Source: a bacterium (GTDB taxonomy: Bacteria > Bacteroidota > Bacteroidia > B-17B0 > Aurantibacillaceae). Taken from it: DNA of 58,060 nt. Positions 4,634 to 23,491 of this stretch are shown in pieces. The stretch lies in NCBI GenBank assembly GCA_029945625.1, contig JAQSCW010000004.1, positions 1 to 58,060 of the forward strand, written 5' to 3'. A model generated the notes under the pieces. The model was not told where the DNA came from, searched no databases, and saw nothing but the letters and a program-made list of their open reading frames with translations. The first letter of the stretch is position 1. Every line of letters begins with the position of its first letter. The position numbers and the translations under genes were made by a program.

Positions 4634-5251
4634 ATGCACATTGCGATTGCGGGTAACATTGGGTCGGGAAAAACCACCTTGACTTCTCTATTGGCGAAAC
4701 ACTACAAATGGCATGCTCACTACGAAGACGCAGATGACAATCCGTATCTGAATGATTTTTACGAAGATATGCAACGATGGTCCTTTAACCTTCAGGTGTA
4801 TTTTCTTAACAATCGATTCACTCAGATCCTAGATATCAGAAAAGGTAAACATACTGTTGTGCAGGATCGTACGATCTATGAAGACGCTTATATTTTTGCT
4901 CCCAATCTTCATGCGATGGGCTTAATGACCTCACGCGATTATGATAATTACTTTTCCTTGTTTAAACTCATGGAAAGTCTAGTGAAAGCACCCGATTTGA
5001 TCATTTACCTCAGAGCAAGTGTGCCTACCTTAGTGAAACAAATTCAGAAACGCGGACGCGAATATGAAAACAGTATTCGCTTGGATTATCTGAAGCGACT
5101 AAACGAACGGTATGAAGCCTGGAATGCTTCTTATGAAGCAGGAAAGATTCTGGTGGTAGATGTGGATGACGTGAATTTTAGTGAGAGTAAAGAAGATTTT
5201 GGTAAAGTGATCAGGATGATTGACGCAGAACTAAACGGTTTATTTAAATAG
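4634..5251 (+). CDS. Deoxynucleoside kinase (deoxyadenosine/deoxyguanosine kinase family)
   Basis: A 205-residue cytosolic enzyme expected to phosphorylate deoxynucleosides with ATP in the salvage pathway. The P-loop GNIGSGKTT spans residues 7-15. QDRTIYEDAYIF (Asp78-Arg79) is the family's DRS/ERS-type motif, and KRGREYE around residues 139-145 is the Arg-rich lid over the phosphates. Length matches the dNK family. Substrate preference (dA, dG or dC) cannot be read from the motifs. The stop TAG shares its last base with the GTG start of the SiaB-like gene (TAGTG), so the two are probably translated together. Confidence 0.9.
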   Translation: MHIAIAGNIGSGKTTLTSLLAKHYKWHAHYEDADDNPYLNDFYEDMQRWSFNLQVYFLNNRFTQILDIRKGKHTVVQDRTIYEDAYIFAPNLHAMGLMTSRDYDNYFSLFKLMESLVKAPDLIIYLRASVPTLVKQIQKRGREYENSIRLDYLKRLNERYEAWNASYEAGKILVVDVDDVNFSESKEDFGKVIRMIDAELNGLFK

Positions 5252-5826
5252 TGGCCCCAACAGTAAATAAAGACGCAGAATTTTTTGACCGGCATTTCTC
5301 AAAATATGTTGAGAAAGTTAATGGTCAGGGTGCACTATTGCTAGCCTACGATGGCGTTCTTAATCCCGAAACAATCAGCAAACTTGAGACAGAGATTGAA
5401 AGTAAGATTCTTGACAAAAATCTTCCTAAAATCGTAATCAAAAAGGTGTTTTTCATTTGTATCGAATCACTGCAAAACATGTTCATTCATGGCTACAAAG
5501 ATGATACAGGCGCCAAACATAATTTCTTCATTCTTTATGTCACCGCTACAGCCGTTAAAATGATTGGGGCTAACCTAATAGCCAATTCGGCCGTTGAAAA
5601 ACTCAGCAAACATATTGACCGCATCAACTCCTTCGATGACCCCGCCGAATTAAAAACGTATTATCTCGAACACCTCGAAAATAACGAACTGAGTGATAAA
5701 GGAGGCGCAGGCCTTGGTTTTATAACCATTGGAATGAAAAGCGGAAACAAACTGGTGACACAGTATGAAAAGATAAACGAAGAAAGGTCAATGTTTTTGA
5801 TGGAAGTTTCCATTAATATTGGCTAG
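5251..5826 (+). CDS. SiaB-like protein kinase (DUF6272 family)
   Basis: A 191-residue soluble protein starting at GTG 5251. ESLQNMFIHGY at about residues 74-84 resembles the N-box of GHKL ATPases, and GGAGLGFITIG at about 151-161 resembles the glycine-rich ATP lid. This matches the SiaB family, whose founder in Pseudomonas phosphorylates the partner SiaC while the SpoIIE-type phosphatase SiaA removes the phosphate. No SiaC-like (DUF1987) gene is adjacent; a SpoIIE-type phosphatase with a sensor propeller is encoded 12 kb downstream at 17936-21121. The overlap with the deoxynucleoside kinase suggests co-expression but not a shared function. The family call rests on motif and length recognition. 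Confidence 0.7.
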   Translation: MAPTVNKDAEFFDRHFSKYVEKVNGQGALLLAYDGVLNPETISKLETEIESKILDKNLPKIVIKKVFFICIESLQNMFIHGYKDDTGAKHNFFILYVTATAVKMIGANLIANSAVEKLSKHIDRINSFDDPAELKTYYLEHLENNELSDKGGAGLGFITIGMKSGNKLVTQYEKINEERSMFLMEVSINIG

Positions 5827-17438: not shown

Positions 17439-17942
17439 ATGATTGTCACGGAAACTTCAAGACTTATTTTACGTGAGCTGACTCCGAGCGATGCTGACTT
17501 TATGTATCGTCTTAACCTCGATCCTGAGGTGATCAAATACACCGGTGATAAACCTTTTGATGACATAGATGCTGCGCGATTGTTTTTAGAAAATTACGAT
17601 CACTACCAAAAATATGGCTTTGGAAGATGGGCCGTACTCTTGAAAGAGGATCAGTCGTTGATAGGTTGGTGCGGTTTAAAATACGACACCGTCAAGGATG
17701 AATTCGATGTTGGTTTTCGTTTTTTCAGAGAACACTGGAGTAAGGGTTACGCCACGGAAGCAGCCGGGGCAAGTATTAATTTGGGTTTCAAGAGATTTCA
17801 AATAGCAACGATTGTTGGTAGAGCCATGAGCCAAAATCTTGCCTCCATCAACGTATTACAAAAACTGGGCATGAAGTATTGGAAGGTCGAACTGTGCGGC
17901 CAAGTGCCGGGAGTGGTATACAGAATGAATAATCCCTATTGA
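17439..17942 (+). CDS. GNAT-family N-acetyltransferase (RimJ/RimL type)
   Basis: A 167-residue cytosolic acetyl-CoA-dependent transferase. It begins ETSRLILREL, the usual start of the Acetyltransf_3 subgroup, has DVGFRFFREHWSKGYATEA (the acetyl-CoA site, motif A) at about residues 88-106, and ends with NLASINVLQKLGMKY, the typical final helix. Substrate unknown; family members modify ribosomal protein N-termini, antibiotics or small amines. Its stop overlaps the stop of the phosphatase gene on the other strand by seven bases. Confidence 0.88.
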   Translation: MIVTETSRLILRELTPSDADFMYRLNLDPEVIKYTGDKPFDDIDAARLFLENYDHYQKYGFGRWAVLLKEDQSLIGWCGLKYDTVKDEFDVGFRFFREHWSKGYATEAAGASINLGFKRFQIATIVGRAMSQNLASINVLQKLGMKYWKVELCGQVPGVVYRMNNPY

Positions 17943-20900
17943 TAGCGGGAGCCAATAACCAAAATATCATCTACCTGTTCGTGATTGCCTTTCCAGGATT
18001 CTATTGTTTTATTTAGAAGCGCGCATTGTTCGTCCATACTCAAATGTTGTGATGACATGAGCAGCTGACGAAATGCACTTGCCTTAAATTTCTTTCCGGC
18101 CGGTCCGCCAAACTGGTCCGAATAGCCATCAGAAAAAATGTACACGCAATCTCCTTTTTGAAGCGTTACTTCGTGATTGGTAAATTTATTCGTCTCACCC
18201 ACGCGCGAATTGCCGATGGGGAATTTATTGGCTTTAATTTCTATCAAGTCGTTGTTTCTTATAATCCACAAGGGATTATAGGCCCCCGCAAACTCAAGCA
18301 GTCCGGTTTTTCTATGAAAGGTACACACCGCTATATCCATCCCGTCTTTCACCGTATTATCTTCCAAATTTGTTTGTCTCAAAGTATCACTTATGCTGCG
18401 ATTAAGTTCGTCAAGGATCTGTGCAGGTTGCGTGATCTTATTTTCGCTCACCACACGATCCAGTAAATTATGCCCCACAATGGACATAAAGGCACCCGGG
18501 ACCCCATGCCCGGTGCAATCTACTGCCGCAAAAATCACTTTCTCGTTTTGTTCTTCCATCCAGTAAAAATCACCACTCACAATGTCTTTTGGTTTAAAAA
18601 GAATAAACGTGTTTGGTAAATGTTTTTTTACAAAGTCATCGGGCGGAAGAATCGCATCTTGAATGCGTTTTGCATAGCGAATGCTCGCGGTGATATCCTT
18701 ATTGATCTCATCCAATTCCTTGTTCTTCTCCACCACTTCAGCGGTACGTTCATTCACCTTGTCTTCCAGAATCTTTTTCTCCTGCCGGAGTTTCCGTTCC
18801 CTCACTTTAATATAAGTGAATAATCCACTCACAATGGCACTAAATACGATAAGATAAAACCACCAGGTTTTCCAATAGGGCGGGGTAATGGTGATCTGCA
18901 TAATCACCGGCTCACTTTGTATGCCCGAACTATTGATCCCAATTAATTTAAATACATATTTACCATGGGGCAAATTAGAATATATTTCACTGGTCTGCTC
19001 GCTCAATTGTTTCCAATTCTCATCAAACCCCTCCAACTTCATCTGGTACTTTACGCCTTCAGGATTAGATAAAGAAATACTAATAAAATCGAAACTCAGC
19101 GAATTTTCCTTATACGATAATTCCATATCTTCCGTAATGGGGTAATCTTCGTGATTAACTTCAAAACGGAGCAGTTTGGTGATGGGCTTCACCGTTGTTG
19201 GCAAGTCTTGTTTGGGATTGTATTTAAAGGCGCCATTCACCGTGCCAAACCACATGTTCCCGTTTGGTTCGCAAAACACGGCACGAGGCTTGGTTTCAAC
19301 ACCCGTAAAACCATCGCGTTGTTTGTACGATAAAAACGCAGGCCCCAATGGAAGGTATTTATTTAAACCCTTATTGGTACCTAACCAAATGTTACTCCCT
19401 TTATCGGCTGCAATAAGAGTAATAAAATCAGAAGCGAGCCCATCTTTAACTTTGTAGTTTAAAAAAGATTTTCCGTTAAAAACAAAGGCTCCTCCTCCTT
19501 CAGTTCCAATCCAAATCTGATTCTTCTTGTCTTCAGCAATAGAAGAAATGCTATTATAATTCAGTCCATTACTGCGGTTGTATTTAGTAAATTTTTTCCC
19601 GTCATATACCGTAACTCCTTTTTGTTTGGTGCCGATCCAGATGTTTCCTTTGCTATCTTCAAAAATACAAGAGATGTCGTTGTCACTGAGTCCGTCAATG
19701 GTGCGCAGGGTGCTAATCTTCATCGTATTCAAATCATATCGAACTATTCCTTCATTCGTGCCAATCCACAGCACGTTTTTATGATCAACCAACAAACAAC
19801 CGGCAAACATATTTACGATGTCATTAAGCGCAGGTATGGTAACAAAACGAGAACTCTTACCGTCGAATTTAACTACGTGTCCTCCCCACATAGCCACCCA
19901 CATGTTTCCATTCCCGTCACGTACAATGGCACGGACGTTATTTGAAGGCAAGCCTTGCGCCATGGTGTAATTCTGATACGCTTTTTCTTTTGGCGCTTTT
20001 TCGTCATGTATCGTTATGCCTTCATTGGTCCCAAACCACATTCTATCCTTGCTGTCTTTACATACAGCCCATACTTGATCATCTATGAGTCCGTTCTTTT
20101 TGGAGTACGACAAAAATCGTTCGCCCGAATACACCTCGATGCCCTCACCCGAAGTGCCAAAAATGATATTTCCTTCCCGGTCTTCGAAAATCGATCGCAC
20201 TTTATTAACGGCTAAGCCATTACCCGTATTATAAAGTGTGGTCTTTCCGCGTTTCTTGTCTACGCGTAGCACGCCATAATTTAACACCGAGGCCCAAATC
20301 ACACCTGATCTGTCTTCAAGCATTGTATAAATGATATAAGGACCGGTGCCCTGAATCACGTTCTGTATTTCCGGTCCGCTTATAATGGTTTCGAATTTTT
20401 TTCTTTCCGGAAAATACTTTAAGATGGTGCCATTGTAGGTACCAATGAGAAAATTCTCTTCATGATCGCGCGCGAGCGAAGTTACCTGGCCCCCGGTCAT
20501 GCCTTCGGGTCTAAAGAAATCGAAAGTTCGTGTGCTCTTGCTGTATATTTTAATTCCAATATCTGTAAGAAACCACATATTACCCTCCCGGTCTTCACTA
20601 GCGGAGAGAACATACTGACTTAAACCCTGACTGCCTGAATACGTGTGCGTTTGGTAGGAGGATTTATCACCGGAAGGGTTCACGATTCTTATAACTCCCG
20701 CCGTCTCAGTGCAAATCCAAAGACTGCCCGATTGATCCTGATAAAAGCCATAGATCTTTTTGTCTTTGGGCAGGAACCTGGTTGATCCCACTTTAATAAA
20801 GTTCTTGCCATCATACTTAGTTACAGTGCCATTCTCATGCCCAAACCAAAGTTGGCCCTTACTGTCTTTAAAGATGGCACTTACATTATTATCCGCAAGG

Positions 20901-21121
20901 CCGTTTTCGGTCGTATAGTTTATGAAATTTTTGCCATCGAAACGGGAAACACCTCCTGCAGTAGCAATCCAGTAAAATCCCGAATCATCCTGAACAACGC
21001 CCGTAACGTTAGACTGAGCCAATCCCTCTTTAACACCAAAATTACTAAAATAATAACTTTGAGCATTTAATAGAACAGGAAAAAGAAATAAGAATGATCG
21101 TATAATTTTTTTACTCAACAT
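17936..21121 (-). CDS. Sensor beta-propeller protein with SpoIIE-type serine phosphatase
   Basis: A 1061-residue transmembrane signalling protein. In order: signal peptide (1-20); a dozen or more 'regulator propeller' repeats of the pattern DGKNFxNYTxxNGLxxNxVxxI...WxGT (about 24-640) forming one or two periplasmic propellers; a Y_Y_Y domain (about 690-755); one membrane helix (about 765-787); a coiled coil (about 790-830); and a PP2C/SpoIIE phosphatase domain (about 840-1061). The phosphatase has the metal Asp residues in GDFYWM, AVDCTGHGVPGAFMS, IFSDGYSDQF and QVDDILV. Binding of an outside ligand would control dephosphorylation of a cytosolic Ser/Thr phosphoprotein. It follows the TPR-caspase gene after 27 bases and is probably cotranscribed. 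Confidence 0.92.
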   Translation of the reverse strand: MLSKKIIRSFLFLFPVLLNAQSYYFSNFGVKEGLAQSNVTGVVQDDSGFYWIATAGGVSRFDGKNFINYTTENGLADNNVSAIFKDSKGQLWFGHENGTVTKYDGKNFIKVGSTRFLPKDKKIYGFYQDQSGSLWICTETAGVIRIVNPSGDKSSYQTHTYSGSQGLSQYVLSASEDREGNMWFLTDIGIKIYSKSTRTFDFFRPEGMTGGQVTSLARDHEENFLIGTYNGTILKYFPERKKFETIISGPEIQNVIQGTGPYIIYTMLEDRSGVIWASVLNYGVLRVDKKRGKTTLYNTGNGLAVNKVRSIFEDREGNIIFGTSGEGIEVYSGERFLSYSKKNGLIDDQVWAVCKDSKDRMWFGTNEGITIHDEKAPKEKAYQNYTMAQGLPSNNVRAIVRDGNGNMWVAMWGGHVVKFDGKSSRFVTIPALNDIVNMFAGCLLVDHKNVLWIGTNEGIVRYDLNTMKISTLRTIDGLSDNDISCIFEDSKGNIWIGTKQKGVTVYDGKKFTKYNRSNGLNYNSISSIAEDKKNQIWIGTEGGGAFVFNGKSFLNYKVKDGLASDFITLIAADKGSNIWLGTNKGLNKYLPLGPAFLSYKQRDGFTGVETKPRAVFCEPNGNMWFGTVNGAFKYNPKQDLPTTVKPITKLLRFEVNHEDYPITEDMELSYKENSLSFDFISISLSNPEGVKYQMKLEGFDENWKQLSEQTSEIYSNLPHGKYVFKLIGINSSGIQSEPVIMQITITPPYWKTWWFYLIVFSAIVSGLFTYIKVRERKLRQEKKILEDKVNERTAEVVEKNKELDEINKDITASIRYAKRIQDAILPPDDFVKKHLPNTFILFKPKDIVSGDFYWMEEQNEKVIFAAVDCTGHGVPGAFMSIVGHNLLDRVVSENKITQPAQILDELNRSISDTLRQTNLEDNTVKDGMDIAVCTFHRKTGLLEFAGAYNPLWIIRNNDLIEIKANKFPIGNSRVGETNKFTNHEVTLQKGDCVYIFSDGYSDQFGGPAGKKFKASAFRQLLMSSQHLSMDEQCALLNKTIESWKGNHEQVDDILVIGSRYQ

Positions 21122-21148
21122 GCATCATTACACGATCAATGATAGCAA

Positions 21149-23491
21149 TTATTTTCGAATAAAGAAATAGGTCCCCCCTTCGTCTTCAAGGTCTTTAATC
21201 TTTCCGAACTTAGGGGCTTGGTTTCCGGCATTAGAAACAGCAATGATCACCTTTTTGGCAATCTTCTCAATAGGCAAACAGGCTTCCGTGTTATTGGTAA
21301 GCATCGAACTGAAGGTTTTTGTAAATTGAGAATTATCTGCAGCCAACTCATATCCCGCGGAAGTAAATACTTGTGAAGACTTAGCTTTAGTGAGTTCAAA
21401 ATTGTCACAGTGTTTTTCATCGTCTCCTCCTCTCATGGCCATCAAAAATGTTGCACCCGATTCACAGGCATCGGTCACCACCAAGGTATGTACCAATTTT
21501 CCGGCATACGCCTGCATAGAGGCTTTTAAATTATTGATTCCAAAATAACTAAACTCATCATCGGTCTTGCCGTCTGAAGGCACCCAATATCCAGTAGGAC
21601 TCACATACTTCCCATGTCCTGCATACCAGATCAACAACGAATTGATGTTGTTGTTTCTCACGTAATCACGCAGTTCGATTGAAAAAAACTTCTCCATTTC
21701 GTTTTTTGTCATGTCTCGTTTATGCACAATTTTTGTGATCTTGTAGTTGGCAAGTGCCGCCTTCATTGCCATCACGTCTTTAGCCGGTCCTTCCAAACTT
21801 GGGAAACTCTGGTATTTGCTATTTTCAATAAATACCACCCAGGTATTTCCCATGGGGTTGTCGAGACCTGCTGTAGCGCCACTTCGGTTGAGAGCATACA
21901 CCTGCTTGTTCTCATTGCCGTAAATGTCTCTTACCACCATGGTGATCTTCGTTTTGTCGGCAATTTTTAATTGTGATGAAAACTGAGGGTTTAAATCAGA
22001 TGGATTAAAAACAGCAGTTACCCCTTCAATCACAATAGATTCTATGTGGCTGGCATCCTTAATGGTTCCCTGAATATAAATTTCGGGATTTGTATTGTCG
22101 ATAAAGATCTCATTTTCAAACGTGGCAATTGGCGTTTCAATGGCAATAATGGGCTTATCACTTTCAGTTTTTTCGACCTTGTATCGGGTCACCTGTGTAT
22201 TACCATATACATCGGTTACCGTTAATGAAAGGTCATTCAGTCGGGTAACATCTCTTAGCGTGAGGGTGAAATAAGGGTTTAAGGTATCCGGCGAAAATTT
22301 AGCAATTCCTGAATTTACACTGATGTTCTTAATCGGACTGGCATCTTTAACTTGTCCTTTTATAATCAGTTCATTTTTGTCTGCGCTCACTCTGATTGTA
22401 TTATCAACCGACTTAATGGAGGTGAGCACTACTTCCGGTTTTTCACTCTCCCTGCTTAACTCAAAAATTTTCTTTTTGGCTTGTTTCACCACCAAACTAA
22501 CATTGTCGTTTCCTGTACTAAGTGCCGACACTTTGTTGTAATCGGCAACGGCGGCTTTGTAATTCATAGTGTGTTCAAGTGCAGCTGCTCTGCTCAAATA
22601 AGCACCCAAATCAGTATCATCAATTAGCAGAACCTGGGTATAATCGTTTATGGCGTTTTGGTGCTGTCCCATAATGATATAGAACGCCGCCCTTTGTTTG
22701 TAGGCGGCAGCATTTGGCCGACTAAGGATCACTTTGGTAATATCGTTAATGGCGCTTTGATAATCTTTTTTTGCGGCATCTACTAAGCTCCTTGTAAAAT
22801 AGATATCCATGTTATTGGGATCTTTCAGCAAGGCTTCTTCACACACTTTCATGGCCTCATCGGCTTTGTTCAGCTTTATTTGAGTTAAGGCCAAACCCAC
22901 ATAAGCGGGAATAAATTTAGCATCACTCGCTTTGGCACTTTTGTAAAACTTCTCAGCTTCAGGATAATTGCGTAAGCTATCAAGCATCGCTGCGTGTGCA
23001 AAAAGAGTGCTGGTGCTTTTCTTGGCGTCAATGGCCAGTTGGGTCATCTTAACACCCGTTGTATAATCCTTTAATTTGATCAGCACCCCAATTTCTTCAG
23101 CAATGGCCTCAGAGTATTTTTTATCATTCTCAATGGCAAGTTGAAGCATCTCATCGGCATCCTTATAACGACCAATGGAAGCCAGTAAGCGGCCGGCATT
23201 GTAATACAATTCCTTTTCTTTTGGAAGGAGGGTAATCGCTTTTTTGTAGTCGGCAATCGCCTCCTGTTTTTTATTTACTTTCTCATAACATGCCGCTCTG
23301 GCAACGAAAGCATCCTCAAAATCAGCCTTCATTTCTATCGCCTTCGAATAGTTTTCAATGGCTCCTTCATAATTATTTCCCTTTTCGAGTTTTTGAGCTG
23401 CGCTGAAGTATTTTTTTGGTGACTGTGCAACGGATGCCAAAGCAATACACGAAAGCAATCCCGCAAAAAATATATTTTTGAATGTTAACAT
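21149..23491 (-). CDS. TPR-repeat protein with caspase-like (C14) protease domain
   Basis: A 780-residue exported protein. Residues 1-23 are a signal peptide (MLTFKNIFFAGLL...ASVAQ). About eight tetratricopeptide repeats follow (about 26-345). Then come two similar beta-rich domains (about 355-545), each with an 'I.SI...G..A.F.P..LNP.F' strand set and a D[VI]YGN motif. The C-terminal caspase-hemoglobinase fold (about 549-780) has His626 in IWYAGHGK and Cys676 in VVTDACESG, the expected catalytic dyad. The signal peptide puts the protease in the periplasm or at the outer membrane. It is the first gene of a two-gene unit with the propeller-phosphatase. Targets and activation are unknown. Confidence 0.88.
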   Translation of the reverse strand: MLTFKNIFFAGLLSCIALASVAQSPKKYFSAAQKLEKGNNYEGAIENYSKAIEMKADFEDAFVARAACYEKVNKKQEAIADYKKAITLLPKEKELYYNAGRLLASIGRYKDADEMLQLAIENDKKYSEAIAEEIGVLIKLKDYTTGVKMTQLAIDAKKSTSTLFAHAAMLDSLRNYPEAEKFYKSAKASDAKFIPAYVGLALTQIKLNKADEAMKVCEEALLKDPNNMDIYFTRSLVDAAKKDYQSAINDITKVILSRPNAAAYKQRAAFYIIMGQHQNAINDYTQVLLIDDTDLGAYLSRAAALEHTMNYKAAVADYNKVSALSTGNDNVSLVVKQAKKKIFELSRESEKPEVVLTSIKSVDNTIRVSADKNELIIKGQVKDASPIKNISVNSGIAKFSPDTLNPYFTLTLRDVTRLNDLSLTVTDVYGNTQVTRYKVEKTESDKPIIAIETPIATFENEIFIDNTNPEIYIQGTIKDASHIESIVIEGVTAVFNPSDLNPQFSSQLKIADKTKITMVVRDIYGNENKQVYALNRSGATAGLDNPMGNTWVVFIENSKYQSFPSLEGPAKDVMAMKAALANYKITKIVHKRDMTKNEMEKFFSIELRDYVRNNNINSLLIWYAGHGKYVSPTGYWVPSDGKTDDEFSYFGINNLKASMQAYAGKLVHTLVVTDACESGATFLMAMRGGDDEKHCDNFELTKAKSSQVFTSAGYELAADNSQFTKTFSSMLTNNTEACLPIEKIAKKVIIAVSNAGNQAPKFGKIKDLEDEGGTYFFIRK

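Follow-up and report, generated by a model that had tools for sequence, protein, structure and literature searches.

In Pseudomonas aeruginosa, the phosphorylation of SiaC at Thr68 is set by SiaA together with SiaB (PMC7647112), and SiaC activates SiaD through binding (PMC8457831). The hybrid two-component systems (HTCS) of Bacteroidota, among them BT4663, BT3049 and BT4673, have a periplasmic head of propellers and a Y_Y_Y domain, and kinase, receiver and DNA-binding parts in the cytoplasm. In orthocaspases, WD40 domains and tetratricopeptide repeats (TPR) are the most common attached domains, and metacaspase operons have sigma-70 and OmpA among their neighbours (PMC3501461); the term SpoIIE does not occur in the main text of that caspase survey. 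Exported bacterial caspases are discussed mostly in terms of cell death. Here we describe a two-gene locus in a 58,060-nucleotide stretch (hereafter the window; contig JAQSCW010000004.1 of assembly GCA_029945625.1) from a member of the Aurantibacillaceae (Bacteroidota), in which the gene of a TPR/caspase protein is followed by that of a sensor phosphatase with propellers and a SpoIIE domain. No described pair of a caspase and a propeller-SpoIIE protein was found in the open-licence literature, as represented by the listed titles and abstract openings and part of PMC7159879.

The pair is real and conserved, and it is probably functional. It suggests that in Bacteroidota a caspase can be built into the way bacteria sense signals. 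That the two genes form one signalling unit, with an exported caspase as the periplasmic partner of a SiaA-type partner-switch sensor, is a reading to which we give about even chances; it is based on the pairing of two caspase clades with separate phosphatase sets, the turnover of flanking genes and the intact dyads of the paired copies. A preliminary description of the locus had given two same-strand open reading frames (ORFs) separated by 27 bases, and the re-derived coordinates agree with it:

21149-23491, minus strand: TPR/caspase gene, 780 aa (ORF call and Pfam)
21152-21859, minus strand: caspase domain, residues 545-780, used as the search profile (alignment A1)
21122-21148, minus strand: gap of 27 bp separating the caspase and phosphatase genes, no terminator-like site being listed within it
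17936-21121, minus strand: propeller-sensor phosphatase gene, 1061 aa (ORF call and Pfam)
17939-18796, minus strand: SiaA-like linker and PP2C domain, with conserved candidate metal-binding Asp 851, 868, 998, 1002 and 1052

The caspase protein consists of a signal-like start, TPRs, two beta-rich domains and Peptidase_C14. Pfam TPR models match it, and Peptidase_C14 is found at residues 551-761 with an E-value of 9.6e-15 and 55.3 bits, above the curated cut-off of 21.4. Pfam names no family for the two predicted beta-rich domains (about residues 352-535, between the TPRs and the caspase), which in the model we read as immunoglobulin (Ig)-like. The catalytic dyad, His626 in YAGHGK and Cys676 in DACESG, had been noted earlier and was verified at both residues. 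Peptidase_C14 with a His-Cys dyad makes the protein similar to orthocaspases; it differs from them in its signal-like start and in its pairing with a sensor phosphatase. The similarity to the eukaryotic MALT1 paracaspase and metacaspase MCA2 is weak, these being the only solved relatives of the caspase profile at E 0.01 (1e-4 to 5e-3, N-terminal half). Csx29, the TPR-CHAT protease, likewise combines TPRs with a clan CD protease. The window protein, in contrast, matches Peptidase_C14, has no CHAT match in Pfam and has a signal-like start.

In the phosphatase, Pfam recognises Reg_prop (E 5e-64), Y_Y_Y (residues 685-745) and SpoIIE (residues 860-1059, E 1.7e-21, 77.5 bits). SpoIIE is preceded by a helical linker and is the sole domain recognised C-terminal to the transmembrane segment. 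The preliminary domain calls (TPR and caspase; propeller, Y_Y_Y, transmembrane segment and SpoIIE) are thus upheld by Pfam and hydropathy. The periplasmic head resembles that of the HTCS BT4663, BT3049 and BT4673, the closest solved structures by sequence and fold, but it is joined to a cytoplasmic phosphatase and has a caspase as partner. Profile, sequence and fold all place the phosphatase domain nearest to SiaA. The NCBIfam SiaA model gives 218 bits over residues 776-1059, 6k4e is the only PDB sequence match to the domain at E 0.001 (E 9.5e-43), and the Foldseek comparison with SiaA yields a TM-score of 0.87 by target length. In the alignment of propeller-SpoIIE proteins, Asp 851 and 868 are present in 68 of 68 rows and Asp 998, 1002 and 1052 in 67 of 68 (one gap), and position 929 is Glu in one row; these Asp residues are the candidate metal ligands of the PP2C domain. 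As its profile score is below the equivalog cut-off of the SiaA model, the protein is best called SiaA-like, not SiaA. The likeness to SiaABCD lies in the PP2C domain and linker and in the SiaB and SiaC genes found in the genome and beside a paralogue. The differences are the sensor head of propellers and Y_Y_Y, the adjoining caspase gene, and the lack of a SiaB, SiaC and SiaD cluster at the window pair itself.

Membrane and signal calls were made by simple hydropathy, not SignalP. Both window proteins have a signal-like hydrophobic start. The phosphatase reveals one likely transmembrane segment near residue 753 and a weak second hydrophobic window at 427, inside the propeller region. In 48 pairs the phosphatase is 900 aa or longer; of these pairs, 47 caspases have a strong hydrophobic segment in the first 65 residues (the exception being the fragment L056) and 47 phosphatases have one in the first 60 residues. 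At the threshold used, the listed phosphatases save L026 also have a hydrophobic segment at residues 734-831. The caspase and the propellers are therefore predicted to lie outside, and the phosphatase domain inside. It had been stated earlier that any link between the two proteins must be indirect. The analysis does not support this, since both the caspase and the propeller/Y_Y_Y head are predicted to face the periplasm, the phosphatase domain alone being inside, and a direct contact of the caspase with the sensor would be possible.

The conservation of the pair was surveyed with profile A1 in place of Pfam Peptidase_C14, because the latter missed the window's own caspase in a multi-genome search (two vs. 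three matches in the own genome). The own-family search took in 87 genomes and gave 61 rows, all of which were covered (the window, L026, L027 and 58 fetched regions). The class search took in 395 genomes; of its listed rows outside the own family, those with the best scores supplied 60 regions, to which the named contig L008 was added, so that the pairing counts describe the copies nearest the window's. Four caspase rows below 100 bits (L073, L074, L084, L085) and nine regions with weak matches and no caspase ORF over the threshold (L075-L083) were dropped before counting. L028-L030 are the same loci as L006, L005 and L004 and were counted once, and one split gene accounts for both L056 and L057, its two ends.

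The gene downstream is readable for 53 TPR caspases. In 35 of these cases it is a propeller-SpoIIE gene on the same strand, at a gap of -59 to +58 bp; in three further TPR caspases the downstream side is cut by a contig end. Together with eight WD40-type pairs and eight of other types (three of the latter being opposite-strand and one a fragment of the split gene), this makes 51 pairs from 47 genomes. The SpoIIE domain itself is visible in 33 of the 35 TPR pairs and seven of the eight WD40 pairs, and in the rest propeller sequence only. The TPR pairs span at least eight GTDB families (f1 16, f34 6, f6 4, f28 3, f21 2, then f19, f44, f30 and one unlabelled contig), and an adjacency limited to close relatives, which the preliminary description had named as a refuting outcome, is thus not what is observed. 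Four extra units chosen by adjacent coordinates, outside the 35/53 count, were confirmed; in a fifth, the two genes are separated by an opposite ORF of 164 aa. The distribution is patchy, since in a phylum-wide draw of 395 genomes the own genome was the sole match at E 1e-60. The linkage is not obligatory, as 18 TPR copies are unlinked; in genome G253, the orthologous caspase and phosphatase genes are both kept, 90 kb apart. Two or three neighbouring caspase ORFs per locus were observed at L169, L125, L133 and L135.

In the alignment, the dyad is intact in 35/35 paired TPR copies and 8/8 paired WD40 copies, and the paired caspases of other types have the Cys in 8/8 and the His in 7/8, the one gap being the split gene. 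The Cys is lost in four of the 18 unpaired TPR copies (Thr in three, Ala in one), and one of the four is also without the His. The loss of the dyad in homologues, which the preliminary description had named as a refuting outcome, is hence absent from the paired copies and present among the unpaired. Since the four cases sit in two families, the confinement of Cys loss among TPR copies to the unpaired ones is a trend, not a test. The four proteins (L114, L115, L116 and L143, with Thr, Thr, Thr and Ala) are pseudo-orthocaspases in Bacteroidota. Asp674 is conserved in 103/103 aligned caspase copies, and Asp572 in the TPR copies, whether paired or not, and in the paired WD40 copies; they make a candidate acidic S1 pocket, which would favour cleavage after Arg or Lys. 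Asp572 aligns with an Asp of MALT1, presumably part of its Arg-binding pocket, in a weak alignment that covers Asp572 only, not Asp674.

Five propeller-SpoIIE genes were seen in the own 4.1-Mb genome, from which we estimate that a random gene would neighbour one in well under one in a hundred cases. The more serious objection is shared descent, for which the flanking genes serve as control. The nearest outer ORFs (mechanical ORFs of at least 80 aa, some perhaps spurious) are homologous within families in 35/140 comparisons on the caspase side and 12/140 on the phosphatase side; between families the figures are 5/421 and 2/388, respectively. For ORFs of at least 150 aa within 6 kb on the same side, the values are 31/140 and 30/140 within families, and 4/421 and 2/388 between families. 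The pair is retained as its surroundings turn over.

A second unit is present on contig 33 of the same genome, where a WD40-caspase ORF of 853 aa is followed after 4 bp by a propeller-SpoIIE protein of 1084 aa, 33% identical to that of the window. The genome has four caspase matches (window, contigs 33, 18 and 26), those of contigs 18 and 26 being unpaired. The contig 26 protein (L046, 3896-6313) has an N-terminal caspase domain followed by TPRs, the opposite order to the window protein. A tree of 101 caspase rows reveals a deep split between 53 TPR copies and 48 WD40 or other copies, with pairs in both halves; the contig 33 unit and three tail-to-tail loci belong to the second. A tree of 68 propeller-SpoIIE proteins, built with a quick method and rooted at the midpoint, groups the partners of TPR caspases in one set of 36 (support 99), which also includes L056 from the split unit, L161 from G253 and the unlinked L162 from family f3. 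The proteins paired with WD40 and short caspases make up a set of their own (100); a further one (99) comprises the tail-to-tail cases L052, L053 and L054, in which 1-2 bp separate the caspase and propeller-SpoIIE genes and adjacency is kept without a shared strand. Since separate caspase halves pair with separate phosphatase sets, the pairing is either old, with replacement in some branches, or arose more than once.

A further set of 15 propeller-SpoIIE proteins adjoins the TPR-partner set with modest support (80). In 14 of the 15 loci (L146-L158, L160), a signal-bearing protein of 437-580 aa is encoded immediately upstream on the same strand, and these proteins are homologous in 91/91 pairs. 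Pfam scans of three of them gave CarboxypepD_reg and weaker matches, with no enzyme domain recognised. The fifteenth locus, L159, has a different upstream ORF and SiaB directly behind the propeller-SpoIIE gene. An exported partner beside a propeller-SpoIIE sensor therefore looks like a recurring design. C18-type caspases beside extracytoplasmic function (ECF) sigma factors were also considered and set aside; a scan of three neighbours gave two family matches, one to an outer-membrane barrel and one to a CarbopepD_reg-like protein.

As regards the output, the genome has four SiaC proteins, one of which was aligned to the PDB SiaC; all four contain the Thr in an NTSS or STSS motif. SiaB-family kinases are found on contig 2 and in the window:

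5251-5826, plus strand: SiaB-family protein kinase gene (DUF6272), 191 aa, NCBIfam match, about 12 kb from the caspase/phosphatase unit

This kinase (NF038262, 96.7 bits, cut-off 85) lies directly after a deoxynucleoside kinase gene, and we do not claim it as a member of the unit. On contig 2 (L163), a propeller-SpoIIE gene, a 275-aa ORF, SiaB and SiaC follow in this order, and in the part that matches, the propeller-SpoIIE protein shares 38% of its residues with the window phosphatase. The ORF between (1606-2433) has no Pfam family. A SiaC gene is also found some 1.75 kb from each of the caspase pairs L049 and L051; the intervening gene in L049 encodes a malate:quinone oxidoreductase. The output of the phosphatase seems better placed with a SiaA/SiaB/SiaC partner switch, a possibility absent from the preliminary description, SiaC being the putative target.

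We assume the following course of events. A protease of the orthocaspase kind, made of a TPR superhelix, two Ig-like domains and a caspase, would be exported to the periplasm and act on or with the neighbour's sensor head, making or removing a propeller ligand; alternatively, it may dock on the propellers via its TPR/Ig arms or nick a periplasmic regulator. From the propeller/Y_Y_Y head, the signal would run through the transmembrane helix and the helical linker into the cytoplasm, where the SiaA-like PP2C domain would dephosphorylate a SiaC-type switch protein that is phosphorylated by a SiaB-type kinase. A caspase-gated switch in the narrower sense, where the exported caspase processes a periplasmic or incoming protein, the propellers read the product or the caspase itself, and the caspase is thus the signal input of a SiaA/SiaB/SiaC-type phospho-switch, is put forward tentatively, the chances being somewhat against it. 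If true, its logic would be comparable to that of animal protease-cascade receptors. As the unit keeps an intact-dyad caspase next to a sensor of defined type and a phosphatase whose kind of target is known, it makes directly testable whether a caspase sets the phosphorylation of a switch protein. It would also give the propeller-SpoIIE proteins of Bacteroidota a common design (exported partner plus sensor) and a candidate output.

Several results weigh against this reading of the pair as one unit. Eighteen of the 53 TPR caspases stand without a propeller-SpoIIE neighbour (f28 7, f3 5, f62 3, f1 2, f34 1). WD40-type caspases are paired in eight cases and unpaired in nine (one cut by a contig end), and the other types in eight and 25 cases (five cut). 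The dyad is kept in 14/18 unpaired TPR copies, that is, independently of linkage. In the predicted structure of the caspase protein, the TPR part is good and the caspase part poor (10-residue means of the confidence score pLDDT 28-73), and TPR superhelices dominate the 50 fold matches shown, so that no conclusion is drawn from the modelled active-site geometry. The export of the caspase is predicted by hydropathy only. The 218 bits of the window phosphatase are below the 700-bit equivalog cut-off of the NCBIfam SiaA model. Scans of the fetched stretches found SiaC in 2/51 paired loci (L049, L051) and SiaB in 1/51 (the window, 12 kb away), so the pair is not commonly accompanied by Sia genes. 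Finally, the own genome encodes a single stand-alone STAS protein, which is 115 aa long and contains an NSSG stretch, and a single RsbW-like kinase of 135 aa.

It is possible, though we think it unlikely, that the caspase is the output, the sensor phosphatase controlling protease production or activity through the switch and co-transcription being a convenient expression link. This would fit the 35 TPR pairs, in which the genes share a strand and lie close together, as well as the control of an enzyme by SiaC through binding (PMC8457831). The tail-to-tail loci L052-L054, however, show that co-transcription is not what is kept there, and the exported-looking protein of the neighbouring phosphatase set, with no enzyme domain in the three scanned, fits a sensor accessory better.

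Somewhat less probable is an output via a classical STAS/RsbW partner switch instead of SiaC. The target may be a STAS protein, because a stand-alone STAS protein and an RsbW-like kinase are present (contigs 18 and 2):

L166, 5852-6259, and L167, 6240-6587: stand-alone STAS protein and RsbW-like kinase

Against this stand the likeness of the phosphatase to SiaA in profile, sequence and fold, and the presence of SiaB or SiaC genes with the propeller-SpoIIE genes of L163 and L159. Sixteen SpoIIE domains were found in the own genome vs. one stand-alone STAS protein and one RsbW-like kinase; its many SpoIIE phosphatases may share few targets.

We doubt that the caspase domain serves just to bind the propellers and that proteolysis plays no part in the signalling. 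TPR and WD40 are binding modules, Cys676 is lost in four unpaired TPR copies, and pseudo-orthocaspases exist (PMC6426788), but none of the 35 paired TPR and eight paired WD40 copies has lost the dyad, Asp572 or Asp674. That the genes are neutral neighbours, an old adjacency without a functional link, is very improbable despite the 18 unlinked TPR copies, for flanking genes are almost wholly replaced between families and the pair stays, in two caspase clades, with separate phosphatase sets and in both relative orientations.

The preliminary description had also proposed envelope stress, contact-dependent killing or programmed death as the response, for which no supporting evidence was found. 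A programmed death or defence role was set aside, as PADLOC gave the window pair only weak matches to the TPR region. The contig 33 caspase matches the generic caspase model of PADLOC with an E-value of 6.5e-17.

Promoter and terminator scans of the window were at or near chance level (15 promoters found vs. 15.8 expected; 8 terminators vs. 6.1) and were given no weight, and an Rfam scan of the window gave no match. On the 5' side of the caspase gene, 329 bp are followed by an ORF without a family match. The other neighbour is the following:

17439-17942, convergent: acetyltransferase gene, with a 7-bp overlap with the phosphatase gene

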